A stretch of DNA of 21,998 nt from a virus (IMGVR_UViG_3300047994_000012:1-21998); one strand, 5' to 3'. Shown: positions 552 through 20,203, counted from the first letter of the stretch. Numbers and translations are program-made. Notes: a model not told the origin generated them from the letters alone.

Positions 552-1046
552 ATGCGCGTTCAGGTTAGGCCTTACGATCAATTTGGGCGTGATGTTTCTT
601 GGATTACGCAGGAAGTTATTGAAGGGTATATTTTTGCCCTGATAAAAGGTGAACGTTTTGCCAAAAGTTATGTTTTCAAACATACGCAAGGCGATCCGTT
701 GCGTTTGCGCACGTTTGAAGAAGTGTTGCTAGACGATCCTGATTTTGATGATTTGAAAGATCAAATATGGGATGAGCAAGGGTTGCCAGAAAAAGGCAGC
801 ATTGAATACCATATTTGGCAGATTGAGCGCGCGCTAGAAAGCCCTGACTTACCGCCGCAAGAATTGTCCAAGCTGTATAAAATCCTTGGCGAATATCGAG
901 GCTGGATTACCAAGCCAGGCGAAGGCAGCACGCAGACAGTCAATATCAACACTGTGGGCATCGACGGTAAGCCCGCTAATTTGCGCACCATGAATGACAA
1001 AGATGCAGAGTTAATTTATATGTCTCTGTTGACTGGCAAAAGTTGA
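552..1046 (+). CDS. putative terminase small subunit
   Basis: 164 residues, starting at ATG 552, four bases after the lipoprotein stop. There is no clear Shine-Dalgarno, so translation may be coupled to the upstream gene. The assignment rests mainly on position: the large terminase starts inside its stop codon (TGATG overlap at 1044-1048). The N-terminal half looks largely helical and charged, with an acidic middle (residues 57-75, many Asp/Glu) and a helical segment around 85-120. This is compatible with a small terminase that binds DNA through its N-terminus and oligomerises through central helices. I do not see an unambiguous helix-turn-helix. Small terminases diverge quickly, so weak motif evidence is expected. 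Known role of the class: recognise the packaging site and load the large subunit. One TGTGGGCA octamer (953-960) lies in its 3' part. Confidence 0.6.
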   Translation: MRVQVRPYDQFGRDVSWITQEVIEGYIFALIKGERFAKSYVFKHTQGDPLRLRTFEEVLLDDPDFDDLKDQIWDEQGLPEKGSIEYHIWQIERALESPDLPPQELSKLYKILGEYRGWITKPGEGSTQTVNINTVGIDGKPANLRTMNDKDAELIYMSLLTGKS

Positions 1047-2653
1047 TGCCTGTTAATTTTGATTTCGACTTCAAAAAGCCTGATTACGGTAAGGTTTTTC
1101 GCAAGCGATTGCAAATTATGCAAGAACTTGACGATCCACTTGTAATTGCTGCGCTAAAAACTTATTACAAAAAGCATCCTGCGCAATTTATTAATGATTG
1201 GGGTTGCACGTTCGATCCGCGTAATGCTGATATCGGTTTGCCGTCAACTATCCCGTTTATTTTGTTTGAAAAACAAGAGGAATGGGTTGAATGGTTGATG
1301 GATAAATGGCAAAGCCGTAAACCCGGATTGACTGAAAAATCGCGTGATATGGGGCTTAGCTGGCTTTCGCTTGCTACAGCTTGCACGATTTGCTTATTTA
1401 ACGAAGGCGTTGTCATAGGTTTTGGTTCGCGTAAAGAGGAATACGTTGACAAAATTGGCAGCCCTAAATCGCTTTTTTGGAAAGCCAGAAAGTTTCTTGA
1501 GTTTCTGCCTAAGCAATTTACTGGCGGATGGCAGTTAAACCGAGACGCGCCACACATGCGTATAAAGTTTCCTGGAAGCAACTCTACAATTACTGGTGAA
1601 AGTGGCGACGGAATAGGACGTGGCGATAGAACGTCAATATATTTTGTTGACGAGGCTGCTTATATTGAGCGGCCGGAATTGATTGAGGCTTCGCTTTCCA
1701 ACACAACGAATTGCCGAATTGATATTTCTTCAGCACGCGGCATGGCAAATCCTTTTGCACAAAAGCGATTTTCTGGCAAGATTAATGTGTTTACTTTTCA
1801 TTGGCGCGACGATCCGCGTAAAGATGAAACGTGGTATTCGAGTATGGAAAACAATCTTGATCCTGTGACGTTGGCGCAGGAAGTTGATATAAATTATGCC
1901 GCGTCAGTTGACGGCGTGGTGCTGCCTGTTGAATGGGTGCTGGCGTCAGTTAATGCCGGGCAAAAGCTCGGTATCGAAGTTTCAGGCGCGCGCATCGCGG
2001 CCCTGGACATTGCCGACGAAGGCAAGGATTTGAACGCGATTGCGTTTAGATACGGCATAGAATTGCGCGGCTTGCGTTCATGGAGCGGCAAAGGCAGCGA
2101 CACCCTTTATACGTGTGAAAAAGCATTTATGTTTATTGATGAACACGAATGCAACGAATTGCAATACGATGCGGACGGCATAGGCGCGCTAGTAAGAGCG
2201 GACGCGCGCATGATAAATGAGCGTAGAAGCAAAAACAAAGAAAAATATATAAACGTTATTCCGTTTCGTGGCAGTGGTGAAGTAGTAGCGCCTGACCGAG
2301 AAATGGTAAAAGGTCGAAAAAACAAAGACTATTTTATGAACAGAAAAGCGCAATCGTGGTGGTCGCTGCGCATCAAATTTCAGAACACATACCGCGCAAT
2401 TCAAAGCCTGAAAACAGGTGAACCGACGGAATACGACAAGGAAGAATTAATTTCAATTCCTTCCAACATACCGGAATACACAAATCTAATACGCGAGTTG
2501 TCGCAACCTACATATACGCTAACAACAAGCGGAAAAATACTTGTCGATAAATCGCCTGACGGAACACGGTCGCCCAATTTAGCTGACGCGGTTATGATGC
2601 TCTATTCACCTGCAAAGCGGGCCACCGGGCTTTTTACAAAGAAAGTTGCATAG
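1046..2653 (+). CDS. terL: terminase large subunit (packaging ATPase/nuclease)
   Basis: 535 residues from ATG 1046, which overlaps the previous stop as TGATG; a TTG one codon earlier is a less likely start. N-terminal ATPase: Walker A-like segment EKSRDMGLSW near residues 97-106 (the Arg-rich, glycine-poor form common in large terminases) and Walker B IYFVDEAAY near 198-206, with Asp202 and Glu203 as metal-binding and catalytic residues. C-terminal RNase H-fold nuclease: acidic residues in ALDIADEGKD (Asp321), LQYDADG (Asp375, Asp377) and SPNLADAVMML (Asp514), in the order expected for the two-metal site. The protein cuts concatemeric DNA and drives it through the portal vertex, whose gene follows one base after its TAG stop. 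Length and motif spacing are normal, with no sign of disruption. The packaging strategy (cos or headful) cannot be told from this sequence alone. Confidence 0.96.
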   Translation: MPVNFDFDFKKPDYGKVFRKRLQIMQELDDPLVIAALKTYYKKHPAQFINDWGCTFDPRNADIGLPSTIPFILFEKQEEWVEWLMDKWQSRKPGLTEKSRDMGLSWLSLATACTICLFNEGVVIGFGSRKEEYVDKIGSPKSLFWKARKFLEFLPKQFTGGWQLNRDAPHMRIKFPGSNSTITGESGDGIGRGDRTSIYFVDEAAYIERPELIEASLSNTTNCRIDISSARGMANPFAQKRFSGKINVFTFHWRDDPRKDETWYSSMENNLDPVTLAQEVDINYAASVDGVVLPVEWVLASVNAGQKLGIEVSGARIAALDIADEGKDLNAIAFRYGIELRGLRSWSGKGSDTLYTCEKAFMFIDEHECNELQYDADGIGALVRADARMINERRSKNKEKYINVIPFRGSGEVVAPDREMVKGRKNKDYFMNRKAQSWWSLRIKFQNTYRAIQSLKTGEPTEYDKEELISIPSNIPEYTNLIRELSQPTYTLTTSGKILVDKSPDGTRSPNLADAVMMLYSPAKRATGLFTKKVA

Positions 2654-2654
2654 C

Positions 2655-4202
2655 ATGTGGGCAATATTTAATCGGTTTTTTGCGAGCAAGCCTGTTGCTA
2701 CCGAAAGTAAAGCAAAAGAGTTAAATTCGCTTTTTTCCACGCATGGCAGCACACGCAGGCAGTTGCAAGAAATTCAGTTGCCAGAGTTTTCTGTTCCGCG
2801 TGTTCGCCTGACAGAAACAGGTGTTGCAATGGATAGCGGCACACTTGGCGGTGGTGCTGATATCGGCGCTAAGCCACAGTTTACAAGTGGCGCTTATGGT
2901 GTGCCGGATGCACAATTAGGCTGGTATGCTTCGCAAGGATTTATCGGCTATCAAATGATGGCCATTCTTGCGCAGCATTGGCTTATTTACAAAGCCTGTG
3001 CAATGTCTGCGAAAGATAGTGTGCGCAACGGATGGGATTTAACATCCGATGACGGGCAAGAGTTGACGCCAAAAATGCTTGGCATTATTGGCAAAATTGA
3101 CAAGCGGATGCGAACGAAATGGCATCTTCAAGAATATTTGACGAAAGGCCGCATTTTTGGCATTCGTGTAATGATGTTCAAAGTCAATTCTACCGATCCT
3201 GACTATTACAAAAAACCTTTCAATATCGACGGTGTTACACCTGGTTCTTACAAAGGCATGGTGCAGATTGATCCTTATTGGATTGTGCCAGAATTAATTA
3301 CGCAGAATTTGATTGAACCAACAGACTTGCATTTTTATGAGCCTGAATTTTGGCGCATTGGCAGTCTGATCGTTCATCGTTCGCATTTAGTCATATACAC
3401 AACCGGACAAGTTGCCGACGTTCTTAAGCCTGCTTATTATTACGGTGGCGTTAGTGTTACGCAAAAAATATATGAGCGTGTATATGCAGCCGAACGGACT
3501 GCAAATGAAGCTCCTATGTTGACTATGACGAAACGCCTAACCGTGTTTACTACTGATCTTGAAGAAGCTCTTGCTAACGAAGCCGCATTTTCTGAACGCA
3601 TGGATTGGTGGCGCATGACGCGCGACAATTACGGCGTGAAGATTAACGGTATTGACGACAAGATAGAACAATTTGATTTGACGTTGACTGATTTAGATGC
3701 AGTCATAATGACGCAATATCAAATTGTTGCCATGATTGCTGAAGTGCCAGGCACAAAGTTGCTAGGCACGCAGCCGAAAGGTTTTAATTCGACTGGTGAA
3801 TTTGAAGAAAGCAGTTATCACGAAACGCTAGAAAGCATTCAGGAAAACGATTTAACGCCTGTTTTAGATCGGCATTATATGCTTGTCGTTCAGTCAGAAT
3901 TGAAGCCAAGATTTGGCGCTGGCGATTTGAGCATCAATGTCAGTTGGAATGAGCTTGATGCCATGACCGGCCTTGAGCAAGCGCAGCTTAATTCGGCTTT
4001 GGCTGCCACTGACGAAACGTTAGAAGCCATGGGGGCCATCGACGCGCAGGACGTTCGGAACCGGCTTATAGCGAACAAAGACAGCGGGTATAACGGGTTG
4101 TCCCCCAAGGTGCCGCCGATGCCTGACACCCCGTTGCCGCCGCCACAAGCGCAGGGCGCTAAGCCGCCGCCGAATCGCATTCATCCGATTGCAGGCAGTT
4201 GA
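2655..4202 (+). CDS. portal protein, DUF1073 type
   Basis: 515 residues from ATG 2655, one base after the terminase stop; a TTG at 2646 in frame is a poorer start. The body carries the conserved stretches of the DUF1073 portal family: LIYKACAMSAKDSVRNGW near residue 111, GMVQIDPYW and RSHLV in the middle, an Ala/Met-rich stem region (ERTANEAPMLTMTKR) and EVPGTKLLGTQPKGFNS near 362. In this family the protein forms the dodecameric ring at the head vertex through which DNA enters and leaves, and to which the connector genes downstream attach. Public databases may label the domain 'Acb1-like N-terminal', but the context here is structural. The last ~60 codons (4020-4200) switch to about 67% GC and encode a Pro-rich tail that may be flexible. 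The stop overlaps the next gene as TGATG. Confidence 0.93.
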   Translation: MWAIFNRFFASKPVATESKAKELNSLFSTHGSTRRQLQEIQLPEFSVPRVRLTETGVAMDSGTLGGGADIGAKPQFTSGAYGVPDAQLGWYASQGFIGYQMMAILAQHWLIYKACAMSAKDSVRNGWDLTSDDGQELTPKMLGIIGKIDKRMRTKWHLQEYLTKGRIFGIRVMMFKVNSTDPDYYKKPFNIDGVTPGSYKGMVQIDPYWIVPELITQNLIEPTDLHFYEPEFWRIGSLIVHRSHLVIYTTGQVADVLKPAYYYGGVSVTQKIYERVYAAERTANEAPMLTMTKRLTVFTTDLEEALANEAAFSERMDWWRMTRDNYGVKINGIDDKIEQFDLTLTDLDAVIMTQYQIVAMIAEVPGTKLLGTQPKGFNSTGEFEESSYHETLESIQENDLTPVLDRHYMLVVQSELKPRFGAGDLSINVSWNELDAMTGLEQAQLNSALAATDETLEAMGAIDAQDVRNRLIANKDSGYNGLSPKVPPMPDTPLPPPQAQGAKPPPNRIHPIAGS

Positions 4203-5173
4203 TGCAGACTGGCCAGGACGCGGCGGACAAGAGCAAGGCTAGGCGTGCCCGGTCACAGCGTCGCAAGATCAAAGCTGACGGCAAGAAAAAGCCGCGCATA
4301 CTTGCTCGCGGTAAAGTGCTGCGCATAAACGCATCGACACAAGAAAAATATCTTGCTTCTATTATGCCGCTTGTAGAACGCATGATAGCAGAAGCACGCA
4401 AGGAAATACAAAAGCTATTTGCAGAAGATTTTGCGCAGCAACATTTTGCCCACAGTGTGGGCATGGATGCAAGCATAAGTAGCCAAATAAGAATATTGAC
4501 GAATGCACTCAAGAAAAAATACGATCAACTTTTTGCGCAAACGTCAACTGATGCAGCTACGTCGATGGCCGATGCTGTAAACCGCAATTCTTTCAACAGT
4601 AGCAAAGCAAGCGTTAAGGATTTTCCTGATCTAAAAGAAGAAGGTAAGAAGCTGACAATTGACTTAAAATCACTTGACGGGCGCACTAAAGAAATTTTGT
4701 CAGGTTCAGCAAAAAACGCAACAAGTTTTATTCGATCAATACCAAGCAAATATCTTGATAGAGTAACTGACGAAGTTTTCAAGAGTGTTACGCAAGGCAA
4801 CGGTATGGAAGACTTGATACCGTTTTTTGAGAAGTTTGACGAAGGAACAAAAAACTGGGTTCATAATACAGCTATGGACCAAACCAGAAAGCTGTATAAC
4901 GGATTAAACAAAGGCAGAATGCAAAAAATAGGCGTGACACAAGCTGAATGGATACATTCGGGCGGCAGTCAACACCCGCGCCCGCTACATGAAGCATTTG
5001 ACGGGCAAATTTATGACCTTGATAAAGGCGCGCCAGTTGGTGACGATGACGACAACGAATACGTTGATGCAGGCGAAGAACCGAATTGTCGCTGCACATT
5101 CGCGCCAGTAATAGCTGACGATGAATTAAACGCTGGCGAAAAAGAGGATGACGAAGGGGAAGATGAAGAATAA
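4202..5173 (+). CDS. Mu F-like (SPP1 gp7 family) head morphogenesis protein
   Basis: 323 residues from ATG 4202, overlapping the portal stop. The N-terminus (residues 1-45) is strongly basic, followed by long amphipathic helices. The C-terminal part shows the head-morphogenesis signature: WIHSGGSQHPRPLHEAFDGQ, a Cys/His-containing core ending in EEPNCRCTFAPV, then a run of Asp and Glu to the stop. In Mu and SPP1 relatives this minor head protein is bound to the portal, is packaged in a few copies and can be ejected with DNA. The basic N-terminus and acidic C-terminus are seen here; whether the tail is processed is unknown. The gene contains the perfect 17-bp palindrome at 4447-4463. Its last codons hold the ribosome site of a 16-codon ORF leading into the next gene. 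Confidence 0.9.
   Translation: MQTGQDAADKSKARRARSQRRKIKADGKKKPRILARGKVLRINASTQEKYLASIMPLVERMIAEARKEIQKLFAEDFAQQHFAHSVGMDASISSQIRILTNALKKKYDQLFAQTSTDAATSMADAVNRNSFNSSKASVKDFPDLKEEGKKLTIDLKSLDGRTKEILSGSAKNATSFIRSIPSKYLDRVTDEVFKSVTQGNGMEDLIPFFEKFDEGTKNWVHNTAMDQTRKLYNGLNKGRMQKIGVTQAEWIHSGGSQHPRPLHEAFDGQIYDLDKGAPVGDDDDNEYVDAGEEPNCRCTFAPVIADDELNAGEKEDDEGEDEE
4447..4463. repeat. 17-bp perfect palindrome made of two inverted TGTGGGCA octamers
   Basis: TGCCCACA, one central G, then TGTGGGCA, inside the head morphogenesis gene (codons for FAHSVG). It is the only place where two copies abut. It could be a dimeric protein site or form a hairpin in RNA. Confidence 0.9.
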
Positions 5174-5213
5174 GGTTGCGCCGGTTGCTGATTATGTTAA
5201 CGGTCGCGCATGA
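5163..5213 (+). CDS. possible 16-codon relay ORF (leader peptide)
   Basis: ATG 5163 opens a short frame, MKNKVAPVADYVNGRA, ending at TGA 5211-5213. It begins inside the last codons of the head morphogenesis gene, in another frame, behind AAGGGG (5154-5159), a better Shine-Dalgarno than that of the next gene. It stops in an ATGA overlap with the protease/scaffold start at 5210, which has no ribosome site of its own. The arrangement would carry ribosomes across a 36-base gap and couple translation of the two genes. What is seen is the ORF, its ribosome site and the overlap. A coupling role is inferred, and the peptide itself may do nothing. Confidence 0.4.
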   Translation: MKNKVAPVADYVNGRA

Positions 5214-6553
5214 GCGCGCGCGTGGTTGACCGCAATGGCTGGTTTGAAATTCCTGGGAACCCTTTATCGAAAGCGGGTGTGTTTCCATATCCAGGTTCGA
5301 CGTTGAATGCACCGGACCCTACTAAGACGTTTATGGTTTATCGTCCGGCCGAAGAATTGGCCGATCCAGAAACCATTGACAGTTTTCGTTTAGTCCCGCT
5401 TGTTGACAATCACCACATGCTAGGCGATCCGGATTTGAAACCTGGATATATGCCGCCGGAAAAGAAAGGTGTGCATGGCGTAATAGGTGATAAGGTTTAT
5501 TATGATGCTGCCACGCAAACGTTGCGCGGTAACTTGAAAGTTTTTTCTTCTTCTCTTGCTGACGCAATTGACGCTGGTAAGAAAGATTTGTCGTTAGGCT
5601 ACCATTGCAATTATCTGCCAATTCCAGGGGTTGCACCGGACGGAACGCCTTACGATTATGTGCAGCGCCGTATGCGTGGAAATCACGTTGCTTTAGTTGC
5701 CGACGGCCGATGCGGTGATGAAATTTCTGTGATGGATAGCGTAACAGTTACTTTTGATGAAAAGGATTTTGTTGAAATGCCCGAAAGCCTCCGCAAGCGC
5801 AACCTTCGCGCGCATACCGCTCTTGTGAAGCAAGCAGTTGGTCGTTATGCTGCTGCTGCACAGAAGCGTTTTCCGAAAGCGAAAATCACTGTTGCAACCA
5901 TGGACGCGGCGGATGAGGAAGCGGTTGCTTCCGAACCTGGTTTGTCTGACGTTGCCGACATTCTTTCGGATGTGCTGCCGCAAATCGCCGATATCAATTC
6001 GGCTATTGCTGACGCGGTTGCGCCGGACGACGGCATGGAAGACGAAATGGAACCGGAAATGGACGCTACGGGCGCGCCCGTGATGGACGAAAAAGGCAAG
6101 CCGAAAATGAAACCGGTCATGGATGCTGCGACCGGCAAACCCAAGCGCGTGCCGAAAAAACCACCTGCGGCGGCTGAACCGGACGCGAAGGCCATGGACG
6201 CGGCAATTGAACGTCATCTTGCACCCGTGCGGCAGAAAATTGCCGCTTTGGAAACTGGCGGCATGAAGTCGATTGTTTCCGAAATCAATAAGCGCAATGC
6301 GCTTGCCAATCAGATTTCCGAAATGGTTGGCACATTTGACCATGCGGAAATGACGCTATCGGAAGTTGCCAAATACGGCGTTGCGAAGCTGAATATTCCA
6401 ACCCAAGATGGTCAGGAAGTTTCGGCAATCACTGCTTATATTGCGGGCCGAAAAGCAGTTGCACCCACCCGGCCAATTCAGGGCAACGGTATGGATGGGC
6501 TGGATGGTGGAAGCCCGCTTGCGCAGTATCTCAACGGCAAAAAAGTCGCGTAA
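5210..6553 (+). CDS. DUF2213 prohead protease-scaffold fusion
   Basis: 447 residues. The N-terminal ~180 residues match the DUF2213 pattern: GWFEIPGNPLSKAGVFPY (11-28), VYRPAEEL, PLVDNHHML (63-71), GVHGVIGDKVYY, DLSLGYHCNY (126-135) and RGNHVALVADGR (156-167). By analogy with herpesvirus-like prohead proteases, His68 or His69 and Ser128 are the likely catalytic pair; this is an inference. The rest (about 240-447) is charged and low-complexity, with Asp/Glu/Met-rich and Lys/Pro-rich blocks then helices, as expected of an internal scaffold that shapes the capsid and is then degraded. It lies directly before the cement and capsid genes, its usual place. Start ATG 5210 has no Shine-Dalgarno and probably depends on coupling to the short ORF in front of it. 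Confidence 0.85.
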   Translation: MSARVVDRNGWFEIPGNPLSKAGVFPYPGSTLNAPDPTKTFMVYRPAEELADPETIDSFRLVPLVDNHHMLGDPDLKPGYMPPEKKGVHGVIGDKVYYDAATQTLRGNLKVFSSSLADAIDAGKKDLSLGYHCNYLPIPGVAPDGTPYDYVQRRMRGNHVALVADGRCGDEISVMDSVTVTFDEKDFVEMPESLRKRNLRAHTALVKQAVGRYAAAAQKRFPKAKITVATMDAADEEAVASEPGLSDVADILSDVLPQIADINSAIADAVAPDDGMEDEMEPEMDATGAPVMDEKGKPKMKPVMDAATGKPKRVPKKPPAAAEPDAKAMDAAIERHLAPVRQKIAALETGGMKSIVSEINKRNALANQISEMVGTFDHAEMTLSEVAKYGVAKLNIPTQDGQEVSAITAYIAGRKAVAPTRPIQGNGMDGLDGGSPLAQYLNGKKVA

Positions 6554-6573
6554 TTTCAGCAACAATTTTCGAT

Positions 6574-6578
6574 AAGGA
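6574..6578 (+). promoter_or_regulatory. strong ribosome-binding site of the cement gene
   Basis: AAGGA eight bases before ATG 6587, in an AT-rich leader of 33 bases between genes. A similar leader (AAGGATTTT) precedes the capsid gene. Both proteins are needed in hundreds of copies. Confidence 0.75.
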
Positions 6579-6586
6579 TTTTTCCT

Positions 6587-7288
6587 ATGGGCTTTCAGTC
6601 TGGTCCGATTTTGCTGCAACAGGCGTATGGCGTGCCTGGCGAGCTTGCTTATTCCGGTCCTATGCGTGTGTTTCCCTGGACGTTGGTTTCATCGCCTGAA
6701 ATAAATTACGTCGGTAGCACGTATTACACGGTGGTTGAAGAAGGCATTGCCACGGCTGGCGGCACTGGTGAACAAGCCGGGTTGCTTGTTGATCCGAAGT
6801 CTTATGTGTTGTATGGCGAAGCTGTATTGAACGGCGCTTTGCAGCCGTCCATGATTTTGCCTGACCAATCAATCGGTCAGCTTGCAGTCATGGGTATTTT
6901 CAATGCCATTTTGACAACTGCCGCCGCAGTTGACGATTTGCTTTGCTTCAATAACACAACCGGCTTGCTGGCGTCTTTTTCGCCAAACACAACTTTTGCC
7001 GGTTCTTCAAGCGGCACAACTTTGACCGTGACCGGCACGCCAACAGGCGTGTTGCAACCCGGTTCAGCTTTGGGGACTGGCTTTCTGCCTGGAACCATTA
7101 TTGTGTCCAATGGAACCGGAACCGGCGGCGCTGGCACTTATACGATCAACAATTCGCAGACTGTTGCGGCAGGCAGTTACAGCGCAAAAGGATTGCCGCC
7201 ATCCGGTTACACGGCAATTCAGAACGGCAAAGTCATCTTGCGGGCATCGGCTGCAAATGGCTTGGCAATAATCGAGCTTACCGGCTAA
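6587..7288 (+). CDS. capsid cement/decoration-like structural protein with an inserted beta domain
   Basis: 233 residues from ATG 6587 behind a strong AAGGA site. The opening [21 protein letters not shown] resembles the N-terminus of phage structural cement proteins that clamp capsomers, and the gene sits between the scaffold and capsid genes as such proteins do. Residues ~137-199 form a Gly/Thr-rich segment ([20 protein letters not shown], later [18 protein letters not shown]) of a kind I recognise from many unrelated phage tail and capsid proteins. It looks like a beta-structured insertion, probably displayed on the surface. The sequence after it ([15 protein letters not shown]) returns to the body of the protein. 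Expected role: stabilise the expanded head. The exact family is less certain than the structural role. Confidence 0.75.
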
Positions 7289-7318
7289 ATTTTAGTCGCA
7301 ATTTTTTAACTGCTTTCA

Positions 7319-7324
7319 GAAGGA
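7319..7324 (+). promoter_or_regulatory. ribosome-binding site fixing the capsid GTG start
   Basis: GAAGGA nine bases before GTG 7334. No ATG lies at a useful distance, so this site decides the unusual start of the most abundant virion protein. Confidence 0.75.
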
Positions 7325-7333
7325 TTTTCACCA

Positions 7334-8452
7334 GTGCCGCAAGTAACACCCGAACGGTCTTTCATCAGCGGGCGCAATGCCCGTCCGTTGACTGGTTTCG
7401 ATCCGAAATTCTATGGCGATTTGCAGCGCATCGGCATTGAGTTGCCGCAACGTGAATTGCGCCGCATGGCACAGTTTGCGGCCGAATTTGACGGCTTCGG
7501 TATGGATGCTTTGCAGCCGTTGGTTTCGGTTGCCAGCATCCCGACACCAATCCAATTCTTGCAAAATTGGCTGCCTGGCTTCGTGGAAATCGCCACAGCC
7601 GCCCGCAAAATCGATGAGATTGTGGGCATTTCCACGGCTGGCGCATGGGAAGATGAGGAAGTTGTTCAAGGCGTTATCGAGTTGACTGGAACGTCTGTTC
7701 CCTACGGCGATTACACCAATATTCCGCTTTCAAGCTGGAATACCAATTTCGAGGAATGGAGCGTTGTTCGTTTCGAGGAAGGCATGCAAGTTGGCGTGCT
7801 GGAAGAAGCCCGCGCATCGCGCCTGAAAATCAATTCGTCCGCTTCCAAACGCGAAAGCTCAACACGCGCGCTGGAAATTCAGCGCAATGCAGTCGGTTTT
7901 TTCGGCTACAATAGCGGCAACAATATGACCTACGGCTTCCTGAACGATCCAGGATTGCCGGCCTATGTGGAAGTGCCTACAGGTGTGTCTGGTGAAACCC
8001 AGTGGTCAACAAAAACATATCTGGAAATCATCGCTGATTTGCGAACGGCTTTCAGCACTTTGCGCACTTCTTCCGCTGAAGTTGTGGACCCTACCAATCA
8101 GCCTACAACGTTGGCGCTGGCAACGGCTGTGATTGATTATCTGTCAGTCGTTTCTGACTACGGCAATTCGGTCATGCAATGGTTGAAAGAAACCTACCCG
8201 AAATGCCGCGTTGAAAGTGCGCCAGAATTGGACGCAGCAAATTCCGGCGACAACGTTTTCTATCTTTTTGCTGATGAAGTGAAGGATAGCTCAACGGATG
8301 ATGGACGCGTATTTACGCAGGTTGTTCCTGCAAAATTTCGCGTTATCGGCGTGGAGCAAAAGGCCAAAGGTTACATTGAAGATTACAGCAATGCGACTGC
8401 TGGCGTGCGCTGCAAACGTCCGTTTGCAGTTGTCCGTTACTACGGGGTGTAA
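7334..8452 (+). CDS. major capsid protein, DUF2184 family
   Basis: 372 residues from GTG 7334 behind GAAGGA. Family hallmarks of DUF2184 capsid proteins are visible: FISGRNARPLTGFDPKFYG near the start, TPIQFLQNWLPGFVE near residue 73, AGAWEDEEVV near 101, GTSVPYGDYTNIPLSSWN near 117-134, GVLEEARASR, then FFGYNSGNNMTYGFLNDPGL near 195-214. The protein has the HK97 fold in known relatives and forms the icosahedral shell. No N-terminal delta domain is obvious, which fits a scaffold supplied separately by the DUF2213 protein upstream. The stop is followed after three bases by a perfect intrinsic terminator, so the capsid transcript may end here. One TGTGGGCA copy lies at 7621-7628. Confidence 0.93.
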   Translation: MPQVTPERSFISGRNARPLTGFDPKFYGDLQRIGIELPQRELRRMAQFAAEFDGFGMDALQPLVSVASIPTPIQFLQNWLPGFVEIATAARKIDEIVGISTAGAWEDEEVVQGVIELTGTSVPYGDYTNIPLSSWNTNFEEWSVVRFEEGMQVGVLEEARASRLKINSSASKRESSTRALEIQRNAVGFFGYNSGNNMTYGFLNDPGLPAYVEVPTGVSGETQWSTKTYLEIIADLRTAFSTLRTSSAEVVDPTNQPTTLALATAVIDYLSVVSDYGNSVMQWLKETYPKCRVESAPELDAANSGDNVFYLFADEVKDSSTDDGRVFTQVVPAKFRVIGVEQKAKGYIEDYSNATAGVRCKRPFAVVRYYGV

Positions 8453-10292: not shown

Positions 10293-10825
10293 TGGACAAC
10301 CCGCTAATTGCATTGTTGATTACAACTATAAATGCAGGGCTTGCCGCGCAATCGGTCACTGTGGGCATTCAGCAAGCATACCAGCCGACACAGCAAGGCG
10401 TGCCCACAGAACCATATCTTTTAATCAGTAAAATAGCGGATGCACGCTATGGTTTCACGCAATGCACGGATGCATTTGACAACGAAACCGGAGTGATGAC
10501 ACATTCCGAAAGTGAGCAAATTCTAACAACTTTTCAGATAGGTGTTAGCGCAATTCAAAATCCGGCTGACGTTAGCGCGTTGACGCAGGCTGATTATATA
10601 AAAGCAGCCGCCACCGCTTTGCAGCTACAGAGTGCAGTATCGTCTTTGAATGCGGCGGGTGTTGGCATCGAAAGAATTATGAAAATACGTCAAACATTTT
10701 TCAAAGATGAAAAAGGCAGGTTTGAAGCCTCGCCTATTTTCGAGTTTACAGTTTCGCATTTTAATACCGTGTCCTATGAGATCGGTAGCACAAGCGAAGC
10801 AATTGGAACCGTAGCAGCGTTTTAG
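10289..10825 (+). CDS. neck terminator / gateway protein (LIC_12616-like)
   Basis: 178 residues from ATG 10289 (ATGA overlap); a second ATG follows at once, so the start may be 10292. Sequence character matches the LIC_12616-type neck terminator family: an N-terminal helix (NPLIALLITTINAGL), a YLLISKI strand, the EQILTTFQIGVSAIQ strand, an Ala-rich helix (ADYIKAAATALQLQSAV), then GVGIERIMKIRQTFFKDEKGRFEASPIFEFTV. Proteins of this kind cap the tail tube at the head-proximal end, ready to join the neck. The tail sheath gene is next, as expected. Two TGTGGGCA octamers face each other here (10360-10367 on +, 10401-10408 on -). Confidence 0.75.
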   Translation: MMDNPLIALLITTINAGLAAQSVTVGIQQAYQPTQQGVPTEPYLLISKIADARYGFTQCTDAFDNETGVMTHSESEQILTTFQIGVSAIQNPADVSALTQADYIKAAATALQLQSAVSSLNAAGVGIERIMKIRQTFFKDEKGRFEASPIFEFTVSHFNTVSYEIGSTSEAIGTVAAF

Positions 10826-12373: not shown

Positions 12374-12442
12374 GGCTGTGCGTAACTCTGTGGGCAATGC
12401 CCGTAAGCTACTGATTTAACGGCGCTTTTAAGGTGGATTAAG
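12374..12442 (+). other. intergenic leader between sheath and tube genes
   Basis: A 69-base gap, one of the larger ones in this compact module. It contains a TGTGGGCA copy (12389-12396), the only intergenic one, which is part of an 11-base palindrome GGGCAATGCCC, and AAGGTGG (12430-12436), a strong ribosome site six bases before the tube ATG. I see no convincing -35/-10 promoter and no T-tract terminator. Confidence 0.55.
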
Positions 12443-13439: not shown

Positions 13440-13448
13440 GGGCAAATC

Positions 13449-15383
13449 GTGAGTATTCTTGACACATTCACGATACTTTTTGAAAACAAAGGCGGCGCTG
13501 AAACCAAAAAAACGCAAGATGCAGTTACAGACAGCGCCAAGAAAACCGGTCATGCTGTAGAAGAAGCTGGTAAAAAAGGCGAAAAAGCAGCCCATAAAAT
13601 TACAGAAGGCAACAATAAACTAGCAGAGAGTTTTGATAAGGTTAAAGAGCATGCGGACGAAATGGCTGAAAGGCTTATCGAACATGCTTTAGAAGTTGCC
13701 GCCGCATTCAAGGCTTTGTTTGCAGTTGAAAAGCTAGTTGATAGTGTTTTTGAAACTGCGGAAACTTCTGATCAGCTAGGCGAGCGTGCAAAATCGCTTG
13801 GTGTAGAAGTTGAAGAATTAGATGCGTGGGGCAACGCAGCCAAGCGAGTCGGCGGATCGGCCGAGGCATTTGGGCAAAGCCTTGTCGATTTGAACCGCAA
13901 CGTTTCTAGGTTTGAAGCCACCGGAAAAGGCCGCTTGCTGCCTTTTTTGAAAGAGCTTGGTTTAGGAACCGACGTTCTAAAGCTGAAATTTACCGAGTTG
14001 CTGCCTGCGTTGGCAAAAGCAACTGAAGGTAAAGACAAGCAGCAAACCAGCGGCGCGTTGCGCGGCCTTGGTTTAGACGAAGGCACCATACGGCTATTGC
14101 AGCGAGGCAAGGAAGGCGTTGAAGCCCTGATTGCCAGGCAGAAGCAGCTAGGGCTTACCACTGCCGAAGATGCTGAAGCAGCCGAAAAATTCAACATAGA
14201 ATGGGATGACATTCAACAAATGTTCCACCATTTAATGGTGGAATTTGACACGTATTTTTTGCCCACACTTGAACGGTTGCTTGACGGTGTAGAGGCAATT
14301 ACACGGTTTCTTGAAGATCACGCAAACGTTGTAAAAGGTTTTTTTATTGGGCTTGGTGTCGCTGTAATTGCTCTAGCTGACGCATTTGACGTGCTTAATA
14401 TTGCCATGCTCAAAAACCCGGTTGTGTTGATTACAGCAGCAATTATTGCAGCTATCGCAGCATTTGCTTTGCTTTATGACGACATTGTTGCTTTTGCTAA
14501 AGGTGGCAATTCCGTGATAGGTCATATTGCAAAGCAATGGCCTATTGTGGGCAAAATTGCATGGGAAATTATCGACGCTTTCCGAGCATTGCGGGATTTC
14601 ACAGTTGATGCTTTTACAGACATTTTGCAGTGGATCGAACATATACCCGAAGGCTTCCGTCAATGGGGCGAAATTCTATCAGGCTTGTATGCTAAATTTG
14701 AAGAATTTTTTCCTGGCATTACAGGGTTGATTGAAGATACTAGCGGCGCTTTGGGTATTAACCTGAAAATATGGGAAGGCTGGTTTAATGCTTGGTTTGT
14801 TGCAGCTAAGTTTACAGTTGAAACTTTTTGGAATGTGACCAAAGCAATATTTGAGTTGCTGGCAAATATAATTGTAAATCCGCAACATGCTTTCGAGAAA
14901 TTCGGCGCAAGCATGAAGCAGGTTTTTCAGAGTTTCGGCAGCATTGGCGAAGGCGTAATTGCCTTGTGGCAAAAGATTGGCGATATTATTACCAGCACTA
15001 TAGGCCGCGTTCAGGCTGCAATTGGCGGAATTAGCGGCGCGTTGCATGTTGGCGGCAATGTGTTTGGCGAAGTCAAAACTTTTCTGCATGATCGGTTTAT
15101 ACATTCGACATACGGGGGTGCGCTTCTGCCTGATCTTCCTGCGGCCCATGCGGCGCTTGCTGACAGCAACGTCCCCGCGTCCGCTCTATCGCCAGGCGCG
15201 ATTCTAGCGGGCGTTCACGCGGGCGCTGGCGGGGCGAATGTAACCAATAACGTCACCGTGCAGGGTAGCACCATAAACGCCACCAGCGCCGAACCTGCCG
15301 CCATCGGCGCAGCCGTTGACGCTACTGTGGGCAAGCACATATCGACGGCCCTAAACCACTACGCGGACGGGGTATCTCATTAA
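13449..15383 (+). CDS. tape measure protein
   Basis: 644 residues from GTG 13449 (AAGGG just upstream). Residues 1-85 are Lys/Glu/Ala-rich and likely coiled coil. Two hydrophobic segments lie near 294-312 and 323-343, the usual transmembrane-like region of tape measures that may enter the host inner membrane. Aromatic-rich helices follow, and a Gly/Ala-rich end (residues ~555-644). At about 0.15 nm per residue the length predicts a tail near 95 nm. The protein sets tail length, is wrapped by the chaperones encoded just upstream, and is ejected before DNA. The last ~260 bases rise to about 70% GC, against roughly 30% around 14820-14880, so the end may come from another lineage. The gene contains a 21-bp palindrome (14223-14243) and three TGTGGGCA copies. 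The stop overlaps the next gene (TAATG). Confidence 0.92.
   Translation: MSILDTFTILFENKGGAETKKTQDAVTDSAKKTGHAVEEAGKKGEKAAHKITEGNNKLAESFDKVKEHADEMAERLIEHALEVAAAFKALFAVEKLVDSVFETAETSDQLGERAKSLGVEVEELDAWGNAAKRVGGSAEAFGQSLVDLNRNVSRFEATGKGRLLPFLKELGLGTDVLKLKFTELLPALAKATEGKDKQQTSGALRGLGLDEGTIRLLQRGKEGVEALIARQKQLGLTTAEDAEAAEKFNIEWDDIQQMFHHLMVEFDTYFLPTLERLLDGVEAITRFLEDHANVVKGFFIGLGVAVIALADAFDVLNIAMLKNPVVLITAAIIAAIAAFALLYDDIVAFAKGGNSVIGHIAKQWPIVGKIAWEIIDAFRALRDFTVDAFTDILQWIEHIPEGFRQWGEILSGLYAKFEEFFPGITGLIEDTSGALGINLKIWEGWFNAWFVAAKFTVETFWNVTKAIFELLANIIVNPQHAFEKFGASMKQVFQSFGSIGEGVIALWQKIGDIITSTIGRVQAAIGGISGALHVGGNVFGEVKTFLHDRFIHSTYGGALLPDLPAAHAALADSNVPASALSPGAILAGVHAGAGGANVTNNVTVQGSTINATSAEPAAIGAAVDATVGKHISTALNHYADGVSH
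14223..14243. repeat. 21-bp perfect palindrome in the tape measure gene
   Basis: TTCCACCATT, central T, AATGGTGGAA: ten perfect base pairs around one base, within codons for FHHLMVE. In RNA it would form a 9-bp stem with a three-base loop. The nearest octamer copy (14260) is 16 bases downstream. Confidence 0.85.
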
Positions 15384-15952
15384 TGTCCGATAGCTCATCC
15401 GCGTATCAGCCAAGTGCCGCGTATGACGTGGTGGCGGTTTTTGACAACAATTTTAATCAGATATTTTCAAGCGGTTCGGGCAACGGCGCGCGACCGATTA
15501 AGGCGCGCATTGTCGAAAAAGCCAAAGTGTTGAAACATCCAATAGAAACAGGCGCGTCTATTGTCGATTTTCGCATCATTGAGCCTATAGAAATAACGCT
15601 AGATATGACGTTGAATGCTGCTGATTATGTCGCTACATACAACGAAATTAAGCAAGTGTTTCTTGGCAATAGCACTATACAGGTGCAAACGAAAACTGGT
15701 TTGTATCCGAATATGCTGATTGCGGAAATGCCGCATGACGAAGACGCAAATTATTTTGATACAATTGCAATTCCGCTTAGGCTTACAGAAGCGCAATTTG
15801 TCATTGCTTCTACGTCGCCATTACCAGCAAGCATGACGACAAAAAATAATGGCAACGTGACTGGAAAACCTGCTACTACTGCACAAGAAAATAATGCCAG
15901 TGCGGTTGCCGGACCGAGTGCGCTGGACAGCATTTTCTACAGTGGAAAATAA
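15383..15952 (+). CDS. Dit-like baseplate protein
   Basis: 189 residues from ATG 15383. Segments ETGASIVDFRIIEPIEITLDMTLNAADYVATYNEI and QVQTKTGLYPNMLIAEMPHDEDANYFDTIAIPLRLTEAQF follow the pattern of Dit-like N-terminal domains in contractile phages, where the protein forms the ring joining the last tube ring to hub and baseplate. The final ~40 residues are Asn/Thr/Ala-rich and probably flexible. It is the first baseplate gene after the tape measure, and its neighbours (plug, hub, spike) are consistent. Confidence 0.72.
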   Translation: MSDSSSAYQPSAAYDVVAVFDNNFNQIFSSGSGNGARPIKARIVEKAKVLKHPIETGASIVDFRIIEPIEITLDMTLNAADYVATYNEIKQVFLGNSTIQVQTKTGLYPNMLIAEMPHDEDANYFDTIAIPLRLTEAQFVIASTSPLPASMTTKNNGNVTGKPATTAQENNASAVAGPSALDSIFYSGK

Positions 15953-15954
15953 AC

Positions 15955-16314
15955 ATGCAAACGGTTGCGCTTTCTGCTGTGCCTAATCAAACATTTAGCA
16001 CAACGCTAAATGGAAACCGTTATGACTTTGCCATATATTTGTGCAACGGTAGCATGTGCTGCGACGTATCGGTAAACGAAGTGACAGCCGTAAGCGGGCA
16101 ACGCATTTGCAATGGCACTTTTATGATACCGTTTTTTGCATATTCAATACCAAATGGCAATTTTTTGCTGTTGACTACAAATGACGATTTGCCGGATTAT
16201 ACACAATTCGGCAACACGCAAACACTCATTTATCTTGATGAAGCCGAGATACAAGCCGCAGTAAATGCCGCGCCAACGCCACAAGAAAACTTGACAGCGT
16301 ATGCACTTGCATGA
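15955..16314 (+). CDS. baseplate plug protein (Pam3 gp18-like)
   Basis: 119 residues, starting two bases after the previous stop. The pattern of strands (VALSAVPNQTFSTTLNGNRYDFAIYLCNGSMCCDVSVNE, RICNGTFMIPFFAYSIPNGNFLLLTTND, and a late LIYLDEAEIQ) resembles the small plug proteins first described in cyanophage Pam3, which sit inside the tube end at the hub. Adjacent Cys35 and Cys36, with Cys30 and Cys52, are unusual for such a small virion protein. The stop overlaps the hub start (ATGA). Confidence 0.65.
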   Translation: MQTVALSAVPNQTFSTTLNGNRYDFAIYLCNGSMCCDVSVNEVTAVSGQRICNGTFMIPFFAYSIPNGNFLLLTTNDDLPDYTQFGNTQTLIYLDEAEIQAAVNAAPTPQENLTAYALA

Positions 16315-17171
16315 GCGATAGCACGTCAATTTCAGGTGATATTTCAGCCATCGACGGGCGGCTTTTGACTGCACAAATTCAGATTAATAATGATCTTGTA
16401 ACATTTGACCAAACTTTCTACATTCGTGCTAAAGGAAAGAAAGCAGCAAATGCTTTGCAAAACGAATGCGAGTTAGAAATCGCCAATCTTGATACAGCTA
16501 CACGCAATTACTTGCTTACAGAAACGTCGCCTTTCAATCAGAACCGAACGCCCAAAATTTTGAACCTGTATGCCGGGCGGGTATCAACAGGTCCTTTTCT
16601 CGTATATACTGGCGACATAATGACTGTGGGCATATCGCAGCCGCCAGATATTATGCTTAAGTTGCAATGCGGAACCGGCCACTTCAAAAAAGGTGCGGTA
16701 GGACGGCGCAGCGGTGGCGCTAACACGAAGCTGTCAACACTTGCTGGAGCGGTAGCAAGCAATCTCGGCGTATCTTTGCGCATGGAAGCGCCGAACGTAT
16801 CTGTAAAAAACTACAGCTATAGCGGCAATGCTCTTGACGAAGTGCAAGAATTAGCGTCAGCCGGTAGCGCGCAAGCCTACGTTGACGATCAGCATTTGAT
16901 TTTGAAATCTGTAAATGTGCCGCTAAGCGGTTCTGTGCTAAATTTGTCTGCACAGACTGGCATGATAGGCGTGCCAGAAATTACAGAACAAGGTTTGAAA
17001 GTCAAATTTCTTTTTGATGGCAGCGTAAAACTCGGCGGCGCTATCAATATAACGAGTGTTCTAAATCCGGCTGTAAATGGGCTTTTCGTGATATTCAAGC
17101 TGGATTTTGAGCTATCAAGCCGAGAGATTGAATTTTATTACATTGCGGAATGCTTGAAGGCTAAAACATGA
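16311..17171 (+). CDS. baseplate hub protein (gp27/gpD-like)
   Basis: 286 residues from ATG 16311 (ATGA overlap). The N-terminal part (IQINNDLVTFDQTFYIRAKGKKAANALQNECELEIANL) and the following VYTGDIMTVGISQPPDIMLKLQC are typical of hub domains that form the pseudo-sixfold ring at the tail end. The C-terminal part (ALDEVQELASAGSAQAYVDDQHLILKS, LNLSAQTGMIGVPEITEQGLKVKFLFD, VIFKLDFELSSREIEFYYIAECL) repeats the fold. It supports the spike encoded by the next, overlapping gene. Confidence 0.82.
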   Translation: MSDSTSISGDISAIDGRLLTAQIQINNDLVTFDQTFYIRAKGKKAANALQNECELEIANLDTATRNYLLTETSPFNQNRTPKILNLYAGRVSTGPFLVYTGDIMTVGISQPPDIMLKLQCGTGHFKKGAVGRRSGGANTKLSTLAGAVASNLGVSLRMEAPNVSVKNYSYSGNALDEVQELASAGSAQAYVDDQHLILKSVNVPLSGSVLNLSAQTGMIGVPEITEQGLKVKFLFDGSVKLGGAINITSVLNPAVNGLFVIFKLDFELSSREIEFYYIAECLKAKT

Positions 17172-17833
17172 CCGGCCCGATACCACCGCCTGACCCTACC
17201 GCACTGCCGGGTTATGATTACGCGAACAAAGCAACTCTTGTAGGGCTGCTTGACCAATTGCGTATGACTATGCTAAAAAATACTGACGACATGCTGCCTG
17301 CCACAGTTGTAAGCTATGACCGCGTAAACAATATGGCGACAATTCAGCCAGCCGTTCACATGGTGACGACTACAGGCCAGCTTGTAGGCAGGGCTTCGGT
17401 TGCGAGCATTCCAGTGCTGGCGCTAGGCGGTGGTGGCTTTTTTATTAGCTTTCCGCTTGTCGCAGGTTCGCGCGGCTGGATTAAGGCAAACGATAGAGAT
17501 ATCAGTTTGTATATTCAACAATCAGCGGCAGCCGCGCCAAATTCGCAGCGAATGCACAAATTTGCTGATGGCCTTTTTATTCCTGATATAGTCAACGGAT
17601 ATACGCTATCTGATGATGACGCGAATAATATGGTTATTAGTAGCATCGACGGCACCACAAAAATTGCGCTAGGCGAAAACCTAGTAAATATCTATGCAGC
17701 AAGCGGAGTTGTCAACGTAAACGCAGAAACAATAAACTTGAATGGCACGCTTGTTATTAACGGGACTGCATATCTTGCCCACATGCATATAGACGCTGGT
17801 GGCGAAGGTGATAGCGGGCCGGTGGCGACATGA
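17168..17833 (+). CDS. membrane-puncturing spike (Gp138/gpV-like) with HxH tip
   Basis: 221 residues from ATG 17168 (ATGA overlap). Residues ~40-125 show the OB-type domain of Gp138-like spikes (MLPATVVSYDRVNNMATIQPAV, SIPVLALGGGGFFISFPLVAGSRGWIKANDRDISLYI). Residues ~150-200 are repetitive short strands (MVISSIDGTTKIALG, NIYAASGVVNVNAETINLNG), as in a trimeric beta-helix. The end AHMHIDAGGEGDSGPVAT holds His205-x-His207, the position where P2 gpV and phi92 gp138 trimers bind iron at the needle tip. The protein pierces the outer membrane when the sheath contracts. A - strand TGTGGGCA (17776-17783) overlaps the codons of this His-x-His motif. Confidence 0.85.
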   Translation: MTGPIPPPDPTALPGYDYANKATLVGLLDQLRMTMLKNTDDMLPATVVSYDRVNNMATIQPAVHMVTTTGQLVGRASVASIPVLALGGGGFFISFPLVAGSRGWIKANDRDISLYIQQSAAAAPNSQRMHKFADGLFIPDIVNGYTLSDDDANNMVISSIDGTTKIALGENLVNIYAASGVVNVNAETINLNGTLVINGTAYLAHMHIDAGGEGDSGPVAT

Positions 17834-18225
17834 TGCAAACGAACGGGCTGGCAAGCCAAAACACAAGCCTTGCGTTGAATGCAAACCATGATTTGTATTT
17901 AGATGCATCGGGCAATGTGGTGCTGGTAACTGGCGTGGAAGCAGTTGCGCAAGATTGTCAATGCGCGATGGCGGCACAGTTGGGCGAAATGATTTACGAG
18001 CCACAGAACGGCTTGCCTTATCTGACTGACGTTTTTTTACAGACTAATTTGGTCAAATGGGAAGCAGCCGCGCGGACTGCTATTTCCGCAGTGCCGAGTG
18101 TGGTGCAACTGAAATCTATAAGTTATTCAATAGCTAACAACGCATTGTCTTACGTTGCTACTATTCAGACTATTTACAGTCAGTTTATTACAGTCAGTGA
18201 CACAGTTACAGGTAGCGTAGCATGA
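17830..18225 (+). CDS. gp25-like / DUF2634-type baseplate wedge protein
   Basis: 131 residues, starting in an ATGA overlap at 17830 (a second ATG at 17833 is equally possible). The N-terminus NHDLYLDASGNVVLVTGVEAVAQDCQCAMAAQLGEMIYEPQNGLPY is the gp25-like lysozyme-fold wedge signature without lysozyme activity. The GxPY motif and a late strand pair fit the family. With the J protein encoded next it forms the inner wedge ring that triggers sheath contraction. Confidence 0.82.
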   Translation: MMQTNGLASQNTSLALNANHDLYLDASGNVVLVTGVEAVAQDCQCAMAAQLGEMIYEPQNGLPYLTDVFLQTNLVKWEAAARTAISAVPSVVQLKSISYSIANNALSYVATIQTIYSQFITVSDTVTGSVA

Positions 18226-19466
18226 GCGATACCACTTACCAGTATGTCGAAAATACCGGCATAATTGTTGCCGATACGTCAACTGTGCTGACTGAAGTGC
18301 AAGGCGAATGGACAGCCGCGTTTGGCGATGGATTGAATATTGATAGCTCTACACCGCAAGGTGTTATGATTTCTGCTGAAGTTTCTGCGCGTTCAAATGT
18401 CATAAAAAATAACGCAGCGGTTGCTAATCAGATAAATCCTAATCAAGCTGAAGGTGTTTTTCTGGACGCTATTTGCGCGCTGACCGGACTTGAACGAAAC
18501 CCTACTACTTACACCACAGTTGAAAACGTATTGCTTACTGGTGTGCAGAATACGCTTGTTCCTGCTGGCAGCTTGGTAGAAACCGCAGCGGGCGACCAAT
18601 TCGATTTGACTGCTGACGTGACCCTTGAGACGTTCAACGGTAGCACCTGGACCGGTATCGGTGAATTTCAGGCAGTGCAGGGCGGTCCGGTGCCGTGCGG
18701 GACCGGCAGCAATGGCTTGGTTAATTTAGTGACTGACGTGCTTGGATGGGAGACGGTCAGCAACGCCAGCGCGGGCGTTGTGGGCACCTTACAACAAACG
18801 GATGGCGTGCTACGCGCCTTGCGTCGGCAAACCCTGTTCCTGCAAGGCGTCAGCCTTATAGGGGCTATATTGTCCGCCGTGGCTGACATAACAGGCGTTA
18901 TTGGTTTTCAAGGGCTGGAAAATTATACCAGCGCGCCGCAAACAATCAGCGGAGTTTACATGGTAGCAAATTCAGTATGGGTGTGTGTCGATGGCGGCGC
19001 GCAAGCTGATATTGCAACTGCGCTGCTGGTAAATAAATCGCTAGGCTGTGCATGGAACGGCGCGCAATCTGTTAGCGTCATAGAACCATCAAGCGGACAA
19101 ACCTACACAGTGCTATATGACGTGCCTACTTCTGTTCCTTTGCTAATCAGCGTCACAGCAAAACAAGGTTCTTTTGTCGGCAATCCTACAACTGCCATAA
19201 TGCAAGCAATTATTGATTTTGGCAACAATGCTATTCAGCCCGCCGATCCTAACGCTGAACCGGTGCAAGGCTTTGGCGTCGGTCAAAGCGCATCGCCTTT
19301 TGAAATAGGCGCAGGCATTACGCAGGAATGTCCTGGTATATATTTGCGTGCAATTCTGATTTCAACGGTAGCAGCTAACAATTTGCAACCGGATGAAATA
19401 CCGCTAGACATATATCAGAAAGCAACTATTACAGCCGATGATATAACTATCGTTATCGTCACATGA
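18222..19466 (+). CDS. baseplate J-like wedge protein
   Basis: 414 residues from ATG 18222 (ATGA overlap). Family features: VQGEWTAAFGDGLNIDSSTPQGVMISAEVSA near residues 26-56, NPNQAEGVFLDAICALTGLERNPTT near 72-96, LVPAGSLVETAAGDQF near 111-126, and later PCGTGSNGLVNLV. Baseplate J/gp6-like proteins link the wedges into the ring around the hub. A GC-rich patch covers about 18600-18870, and one TGTGGGCA copy (18779-18786) lies in it. The start, DTSTVLTEVQGEWTAAFG, and the end, IYQKATITADDITIVIV, are normal for the family. Confidence 0.87.
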   Translation: MSDTTYQYVENTGIIVADTSTVLTEVQGEWTAAFGDGLNIDSSTPQGVMISAEVSARSNVIKNNAAVANQINPNQAEGVFLDAICALTGLERNPTTYTTVENVLLTGVQNTLVPAGSLVETAAGDQFDLTADVTLETFNGSTWTGIGEFQAVQGGPVPCGTGSNGLVNLVTDVLGWETVSNASAGVVGTLQQTDGVLRALRRQTLFLQGVSLIGAILSAVADITGVIGFQGLENYTSAPQTISGVYMVANSVWVCVDGGAQADIATALLVNKSLGCAWNGAQSVSVIEPSSGQTYTVLYDVPTSVPLLISVTAKQGSFVGNPTTAIMQAIIDFGNNAIQPADPNAEPVQGFGVGQSASPFEIGAGITQECPGIYLRAILISTVAANNLQPDEIPLDIYQKATITADDITIVIVT

Positions 19467-20203
19467 GCGACACAATAGAAGCACAGAATGGAATAAGGCA
19501 ATTCGATTTTTCAGTCGATTTGCTCAACTCTATTCTTTGGGAATATAACAATTCCGAAACTCTTAACGCGCTCATCAGTGCTAAGCAAACTTGGTATAAT
19601 AATGAGCAAGCTGGATTTTGGGAAAGCTGGATAACAGACGTTTTTGACTTGCGCACATGCAACACGTTCGGGCTAATTGTGTGGGCAATCATTCTTGGAA
19701 TACCGATTACATATATTTTGCCTGCGCAAACAACGCCACCGACAAACCCTTTTGGTTTTGGGCCAGACACAATAGGCGGCACACCAAACGGCAATGGTAA
19801 CTTTTTTGCGTCAAACTTTTTTGGCAGCGGTCAAACGCAAACGTTTATACTGTCTGAAGATCAGCAACGTATATTGCTGCAAATGCGATATAGGCAACTT
19901 GTCGCTCGCGGCACTGTGCCAGAAGTCAACAAAATTTTTGCTGACTTGCTTGTCCCCGATTACGGGCAACTATATGTTATCGACAATTATAATATGACGA
20001 TGAGCATAGTTGCACCGAACGGCTTTCCGTCGTTTCTGTCATTTTTGTTCACGCAATTTGACATTGTGCCGCGACCGGCGGGTGTTAAGCTGTTGCTTGT
20101 AAATGCCAGCTATCAAGCATTTGGTTTTGGGCCGGACAGCGGCACAGGATCGAACGGCAATCTCAATTTCTACTATTCCAACTTCACGATAAATTCTCTC
20201 TGA
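19463..20203 (+). CDS. DUF2612 baseplate protein (gpI-equivalent)
   Basis: 246 residues from ATG 19463 (ATGA overlap). DUF2612 features: FDFSVDLLNSILWEYNNSETLNALISAKQTWY near the start, WITDVFDLRTCNTFGLIVWAIILGIPI near 56-82, and ILLQMRYRQLVARGTVPEVNKIFADLL near 137-163. The protein has the place of P2 gpI, between J and the tail fibre, and probably closes the wedge and carries the fibre. A segment starting FGFGPD and ending NF..SNF occurs twice (residues ~97-119 and ~220-241), the second at the extreme C-terminus. It may be a duplicated structural motif that contacts the fibre. Confidence 0.83.
   Translation: MSDTIEAQNGIRQFDFSVDLLNSILWEYNNSETLNALISAKQTWYNNEQAGFWESWITDVFDLRTCNTFGLIVWAIILGIPITYILPAQTTPPTNPFGFGPDTIGGTPNGNGNFFASNFFGSGQTQTFILSEDQQRILLQMRYRQLVARGTVPEVNKIFADLLVPDYGQLYVIDNYNMTMSIVAPNGFPSFLSFLFTQFDIVPRPAGVKLLLVNASYQAFGFGPDSGTGSNGNLNFYYSNFTINSL

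Follow-up and report, generated by a model that had tools for sequence, protein, structure and literature searches.

The window and its octamer sites

The window, meaning the whole stretch of viral DNA analysed here (21,998 nt), is a 22-kb fragment without a replication module. The octamer TGTGGGCA occurs in it 15 times as an exact match, with 11 copies on the + strand and four on the - strand. The sites are listed below with the last gene of the window; contexts common to the related phage G002 come from comparison with that genome.

953..960, +, TGTGGGCA site, exact match
2656..2663, +, TGTGGGCA site at the TerL/portal gene junction, exact match
4447..4454, -, TGTGGGCA site, exact match, 1 bp from the next site on the other strand, the two together forming TGCCCACAGTGTGGGCA
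4456..4463, +, TGTGGGCA site, exact match, in a TGTGGGCATGGATGC context common to G002
7621..7628, +, TGTGGGCA site, exact match, context common to G002
10360..10367, +, TGTGGGCA site, exact match, context common to G002
10401..10408, -, TGTGGGCA site, exact match
12389..12396, +, TGTGGGCA site, exact match, intergenic
14260..14267, -, TGTGGGCA site, exact match
14546..14553, +, TGTGGGCA site, exact match
15326..15333, +, TGTGGGCA site, exact match
16625..16632, +, TGTGGGCA site, exact match
17776..17783, -, TGTGGGCA site, exact match
18779..18786, +, TGTGGGCA site, exact match
19680..19687, +, TGTGGGCA site, exact match, in a TGTGGGCAATCATTCT context common to G002
21540..21842, -, final gene of the window, encoding a product similar to that of a G002 minus-strand gene (translations compared by eye)

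Dinucleotide shuffles of the window contain 0.64 copies of TGTGGGCA on average and never more than 4, and an order-2 Markov model predicts 0.49. Under the same model, TGTGGGCA is the highest-scoring octamer of the window, where its density reaches about 680 per Mb, or one copy per 1.5 kb. The genes hold 14 of the copies, compared with a mean of 1.28 and a maximum of 5 in 200 synonymous-codon shuffles within genes. A sequence-only reading of this DNA had already reported the 15 copies, their 11:4 split, and their over-representation, all of which the recount, the shuffles, and the Markov model bear out; its claim that codon use offers no explanation survives the synonymous-codon shuffling. Every GTGGGCA and every TGTGGGC of the window sits inside a full TGTGGGCA, and words with a single mismatch show no excess (16 observed, 15.0 expected). 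The second-ranked octamers of the window derive from a 12-bp tandem repeat, TTCTGCCTCGGC, present in about 6-7 copies at the right end (21918-21998), which probably ended the window's assembly.

Distribution of the word among phages

Terminase and capsid searches gave 171 loci related to the window. Among these, only the near-identical L001, L081, L143, and L151 and the close relatives L002, L003, L004, L006, and L010 are rich in TGTGGGCA; Burkholderia and Pseudomonas relatives with an about 60% identical terminase are not. The relative G002, a whole genome of 44.7 kb, carries 28 copies, and the relative G006 carries 12. The word recurs among relatives of the G002 DNA polymerase, both in environmental contigs and in named phages that infect other hosts. 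Xanthomonas phage Pfeifenkraut and Pseudomonas phage PSV3 each have 18 copies (0.54 and 0.25 expected, respectively), and the IMG/VR contigs G400 and G401 have 22 and 24. Whole-record counts are 17 in Septimatrevirus Epa40, 20 in DLP_2, 16 in Variovorax phage VCLv11, 13 and 23 in Acinetobacter phages Loki and Ab_SZ3, and 14 in Achromobacter phage phiAxp-1. A primase-helicase search added Erwinia phage AH03 (18), E. coli phage Shy (20), Paracoccus phage R3 (26), and Rhodobacter phage RcTitan (17).

The primase-helicase of the replication module in these phages matches the NrS-1 PrimPol structures 6k9a, 6a9w, and 7rr3 (E about 1e-29 and 4e-22) and the Pfam NrS-1 helix-bundle domain. The DxD, SGxGxH, and TG catalytic motifs are kept in the module PrimPols with few exceptions. 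In PrimPol phages of at least 10 host genera, drawn from the alpha-, beta-, and gammaproteobacteria, TGTGGGCA or a variant ranks first or nearly first among all octamers. For TGTGGGCA itself, the hosts are Xanthomonas, Pseudomonas, Stenotrophomonas, Acinetobacter, Achromobacter, Variovorax, E. coli, Erwinia, Paracoccus, and Rhodobacter.

Phages that share only part of this gene set separate the module from its neighbours. G005 and G008 share the head genes only and are without the word. AH2, FoX4, and RcWhiteOak share only the DNA polymerase and have 0-2 copies of TGTGGGCA, for which reason the polymerase was rejected as reader of the word. A G002-type DNA polymerase was not detected in R3 and V1117, yet the word or a variant is present in both. 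The word tracks the PrimPol-bearing replication module, and neither the host nor the head and tail genes. Among 34 records with a PrimPol match, which are not independent and include some near copies, 27 have z>8 for TGTGGNNA. Among 189 records without a match, the exceptions with z>8 are fragments of phages of the window's group or contigs that had been selected for carrying the word. All complete word-bearing genomes tested have inherited PrimPol together with an SF2 helicase and a clamp-like protein.

No array was seen with the distant PrimPol matches of phi105, LP-101, and MSW-3. In G392 and G380, the excess of the word is modest after composition modelling, and no PrimPol was found in either. 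A scan of viral contigs for close same-strand pairs of copies returned mostly chance clusters in unrelated contigs, an outcome that agrees with the same-strand avoidance among true sites described below. The 331-kb viral contig L243 (G383) has 52 copies of TGTGGGCA and 5 of a reversed control word.

Variant words

In module phages without TGTGGGCA, variant words emerged as the top octamer without prior assumption. TGTGGTCA is the top octamer in Vibrio phages AQKL99 and 1.117.O and in PaMx25, Salva, and JenP1, with 23-39 copies where 1.2-2.9 are expected, and TGTGGTTA is the top octamer in E. coli phage VogelGryff (47 copies, 2.65 expected). Queuovirinae-type PrimPol phages carry TGTGGTCA or TGTGGTTA in place of TGTGGGCA. 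The TGTGGTCA signal of PSASB_03 is weak (11 copies, 1.2 expected), VCLv21 prefers CGTGGGCA, and Rhizobium phage RHEph06 has CTGTGG preceded by a pyrimidine-rich sequence. The main words TGTGGGCA, TGTGGTCA, TGTGGTTA, and CTGTGG all contain the GTG/GTGG core recognised by the NrS-1 enzyme; G397 and G399 additionally carry a minor variant without GTGG, TGTAGGCA. On the PrimPol tree, some branches of which are weak, the word variants need four changes. This is the minimum, and none of 200 shuffles needed as few.

Some genomes hold further enriched words. TGTGGTCA and TGTGGTTA, both of the priming type, occur together in JenP1 (L420-L422) and PaMx25 (L414-L416), as if the enzyme of these phages accepted both. 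The second enriched word of Vibrio phage AQKL99 (L364-L366) is GCCWGGC (GCCTGGC/GCCAGGC), with 53 copies and 3 expected. ACCTGGG is enriched beside the GTGG-type word in RHEph06 (L423-L425; 39 copies, 6 expected) and Salva (L417-L419; 38 copies, 10 expected), and RcTitan (L411-L413) has 60 copies of GCTGCGG where 8 are expected.

Layout and conservation of the sites

Copies on the same strand are evenly spaced. The coefficient of variation (CV) of same-strand spacing has a median of 0.51 across 53 strand sets, compared with about 0.93 for random placement; the combined p of about 3e-44 is overstated since the genomes are related. The + strand of the window has a CV of 0.40 (p 0.0025), and that of Shy has a CV of 0.18. 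Among 581 sites in 24 phages, only two same-strand neighbours lie less than 500 bp apart (74 expected at random), whereas opposite-strand pairs within this distance occur at the random rate (71 observed, 75 expected). The median same-strand gap is 3.0 kb. Near-cognate words follow the same rule: four lie within 750 bp of a same-strand cognate (53 expected), 56 lie near an opposite-strand cognate (51 expected, chance level), and they sit in the same-strand gaps between sites. The two strands are therefore covered independently of each other, and surplus copies are not retained. This is what would be expected for start points on a single-stranded template.

These results refine what had been read from the window. 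A spacing of 0.3-3 kb had been proposed, which is not exact: the members of the opposite-strand pair at 4447/4456 are 9 bp apart, whereas the same-strand gaps on the + strand measure 780-3165 bp. Two copies said to face each other at 10360 and 10401 do so, but close opposite-strand pairs arise at the chance rate; this facing pair and the palindromic pair at 4447/4456 are ordinary opposite-strand coincidences. The suggested absence of conservation beyond the eight bases holds by eye in the window but not in the pooled relatives, where position -2 upstream of the word is A in 174 of 302 cases. The base preference spans positions -1 to -3, the region where NrS-1 PrimPol begins its primer. A strand bias had also been claimed. 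The 11:4 ratio of the window alone is not significant (p = 0.12), but of 22 genomes (the window and its relatives) 21 have more copies of TGTGGGCA or a variant on the major coding strand, and one is tied (320:197 copies in all), the major coding strand being weakly defined in some Queuovirinae-type genomes whose two coding strands are nearly equal. Relative to the gene in which it lies, the word shows no significant excess in the sense orientation (225:202).

Homologous sites are kept between related genomes. The window and G002 share 5 of 10 (0.86 expected), G002 and G396 share 10 of 17 (1.5 expected), and DLP_2 and VCLv11 share 9 of 10 (2.5 expected). Genome pairs with few aligned sites gave nothing significant.

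PrimPol as the probable reader of the word

The template sites of NrS-1 PrimPol are 5'-TTTGGTTA-3' and, used with more efficiency, 5'-GTGG-3'; synthesis begins at the first base 5' of the site, and a bare GTG is also accepted (PMC8718748). The passages of the same source that deal with the pRN1 enzyme (ORF904) describe recognition of GTG via the helix-bundle domain (PMC8718748). The NrS-1 genome has only two copies of TTTGGTTA, proposed to mark an origin (PMC7102993), and its GTG sites have been proposed for restart (PMC7102993, PMC8718748). It is this biochemistry of NrS-1 that singles out the PrimPol, and not correlation, since PrimPol travels with the SF2 helicase and the clamp-like protein. 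The Pfam match to NrS-1 displaced an initial hypothesis of a T7-like trinucleotide primase site.

TGTGGGCA is very probably the template recognition (priming) site of a phage-encoded PrimPol of the NrS-1 type. The PrimPol, and not the co-inherited SF2 helicase or clamp-like protein, would read the word. This agrees with the earlier, general suggestion of a functional site, possibly one bound by a phage protein, which the sequence comparisons support well. Several points count against it. An eight-base word would not be needed if NrS-1 PrimPol takes a bare GTG, and NrS-1 has two copies of TTTGGTTA, so arrays are not general for the PrimPol family. The PrimPol gene is absent from the window and from L001, genome comparison does not separate PrimPol from the two co-inherited proteins, and the more distant PrimPol phages phi105, LP-101, and MSW-3 are without an array.

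A plausible mechanism follows the NrS-1 model. In the relatives, the primase-polymerase is fused to a helicase. Its helix-bundle domain would bind the GTGG-containing word where the fork exposes single-stranded template, and the first nucleotides would be placed by the catalytic domain just 5' of the word, opposite its T and the bases upstream. With one site maintained roughly every 1-5 kb on either strand independently, the lagging template, whichever strand it is, would have a start point within roughly one Okazaki-fragment length. The sites may thus prime lagging-strand synthesis, and the median same-strand spacing of 3 kb appears to be on the Okazaki scale. If the word marks the lagging-strand template, the excess on the major coding strand suggests that forks run mostly with transcription. 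On balance, we favour a picture in which phage groups of unrelated hosts hard-wire their lagging-strand starts as arrays of PrimPol words that are even on each strand, evolve in spelling with the primase, and are denser on the major coding strand, with forks moving mostly with transcription.

Alternative explanations

Chi-like function had been proposed from the window, and it can be framed around either the host or the phage. That the phage retains a host word, such as Chi or a DNA uptake sequence, has next to no probability, although the first word-bearing relatives were environmental contigs and one copy per 1.5 kb resembles the densities of uptake sequences. TGTGGGCA tops the octamers in phages of unrelated hosts, and relatives without the module are without the word. 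Among 369 gammaproteobacterial genomes, TGTGGGCA reaches at most about 86 per Mb, compared with about 680 here, and the enrichment that a host Chi would show in its chromosome is not seen in this set. Nor do the carriers belong to one host family, as an uptake sequence would imply, but to at least 10 host genera from three proteobacterial groups. Module linkage across hosts and the 369-genome survey thus contradict the Chi-like host site. In a phage-specific version, the SF2 helicase and a RecB/Cas4-like nuclease of the module would read the word together with a Sak4-type recombinase and steer recombination-dependent replication. The genes for these proteins are co-inherited with the word, whose sequence is asymmetric and rich in G; Chi works on a single strand. 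This version is nevertheless very unlikely: the nuclease was not detected in the word-bearing phiAxp1, nor the Sak4/AAA protein in the word-bearing G401 (detection limits apply to both), and a Chi gives no reason for near-complete avoidance on the same strand with indifference to the other. To our knowledge, no helicase-nuclease reads words of the TGTGGGCA form, whereas PrimPol does.

Single-strand interruptions are known in T5 and some Pseudomonas phages, and a strand-specific nicking site cleaved by one of the module's nucleases, for instance VRR-NUC, would likewise yield strand-separate spacing. Most TGTGGGCA phages carry VRR-NUC, and so does L001. However, the protein was not detected in the Queuovirinae-type phages with TGTGGTCA or TGTGGTTA, which led to its rejection as reader; no nickase of the word's specificity was found, and the word fits a primase site instead. 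We give nicking very little chance. Restriction or modification is not supported either, and strand-separate spacing does not suggest a double-strand target. The remaining alternative keeps the same PrimPol but assigns it another use, with the words serving as many alternative replication origins or as restart sites in place of lagging-strand starts. NrS-1 offers the precedent in the origin role proposed for its two TTTGGTTA copies and the restart role proposed for its GTG sites (PMC7102993, PMC8718748). Such a use seems unlikely here: about 13-47 evenly spaced copies on both strands exceed what origins need, and the per-strand spacing is on the scale expected of Okazaki fragments.

Relation to known systems

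NrS-1 is the closest parallel, with a homologous PrimPol, a helix-bundle domain, and a recognition word similar in length and content. TGTGGTTA differs by one base from the TTTGGTTA of NrS-1, and the main words here all have GTGG. Unlike NrS-1, whose two 8-nt sites are centrally placed, the phages described here distribute about 13-47 copies at even intervals over both strands. PrimPol is the replicative polymerase of NrS-1, whereas most phages here carry a separate DNA polymerase too. E. coli Chi is a host octamer read by the host RecBCD. The word resembles it as an asymmetric, over-represented, G-rich octamer, and Chi acts on one strand; however, the word follows a phage module, and its same-strand copies avoid each other. 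The T7 gp4 primase, which has a TOPRIM fold, uses sites with a 5'-GTC-3' core. Sequence-specific start points on the lagging strand and a phage primase-helicase, as proposed here, are common to both, but the TOPRIM fold is unrelated and the T7 site is shorter and needs no special enrichment. The pRN1 ORF904 is, like the module enzyme, an AEP primase that recognises a GTG core through a helix bundle; its motif is short, and the passages of PMC8718748 that concern it describe no genome-wide eight-base array.

A literature search on the bare octamer TGTGGGCA returned only primers, and no report of evenly spaced arrays of such priming sites was found in the open-licence literature. Both the type of enzyme and its short recognition site were known before. 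Several phage groups, some of them cultured on laboratory E. coli, carry evenly spaced, strand-by-strand arrays, compared with the two copies in NrS-1. The arrays provide a genome-wide, testable map of where lagging-strand synthesis would be expected to start, and the variant words provide natural specificity variants to pair with primase residues. The word could also let viruses replicated by a PrimPol be spotted from fragments without the gene, as proposed for this window.

The flanks of the window

The PrimPol gene is present in the same-word relatives G002, G396, and G006 and absent from two fragments, the window (22 kb) and L001. L001, a near-identical and longer contig, reaches farther upstream than the window and includes a VRR-NUC gene similar to the one in the relatives. 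An exact 39-mer search to extend the window's phage farther upstream found only this known contig and no further bridging contig. In G002, the minus-strand gene whose product resembles (by eye) that of the window's last gene stands immediately before the DNA polymerase/PrimPol module, with the PrimPol located about 10 kb upstream of the terminase. From this gene order, both missing flanks of the window should carry the module, and the window's phage would encode a PrimPol just outside the window, as its syntenic relatives suggest. An IS1595-family transposase gene (L172:6977-7642) lies between the tail genes and the replication module of G002. Another word, CCGGAGCCG, is dense in L001, with 22 copies where 0.15 are expected and none seen in the window itself.
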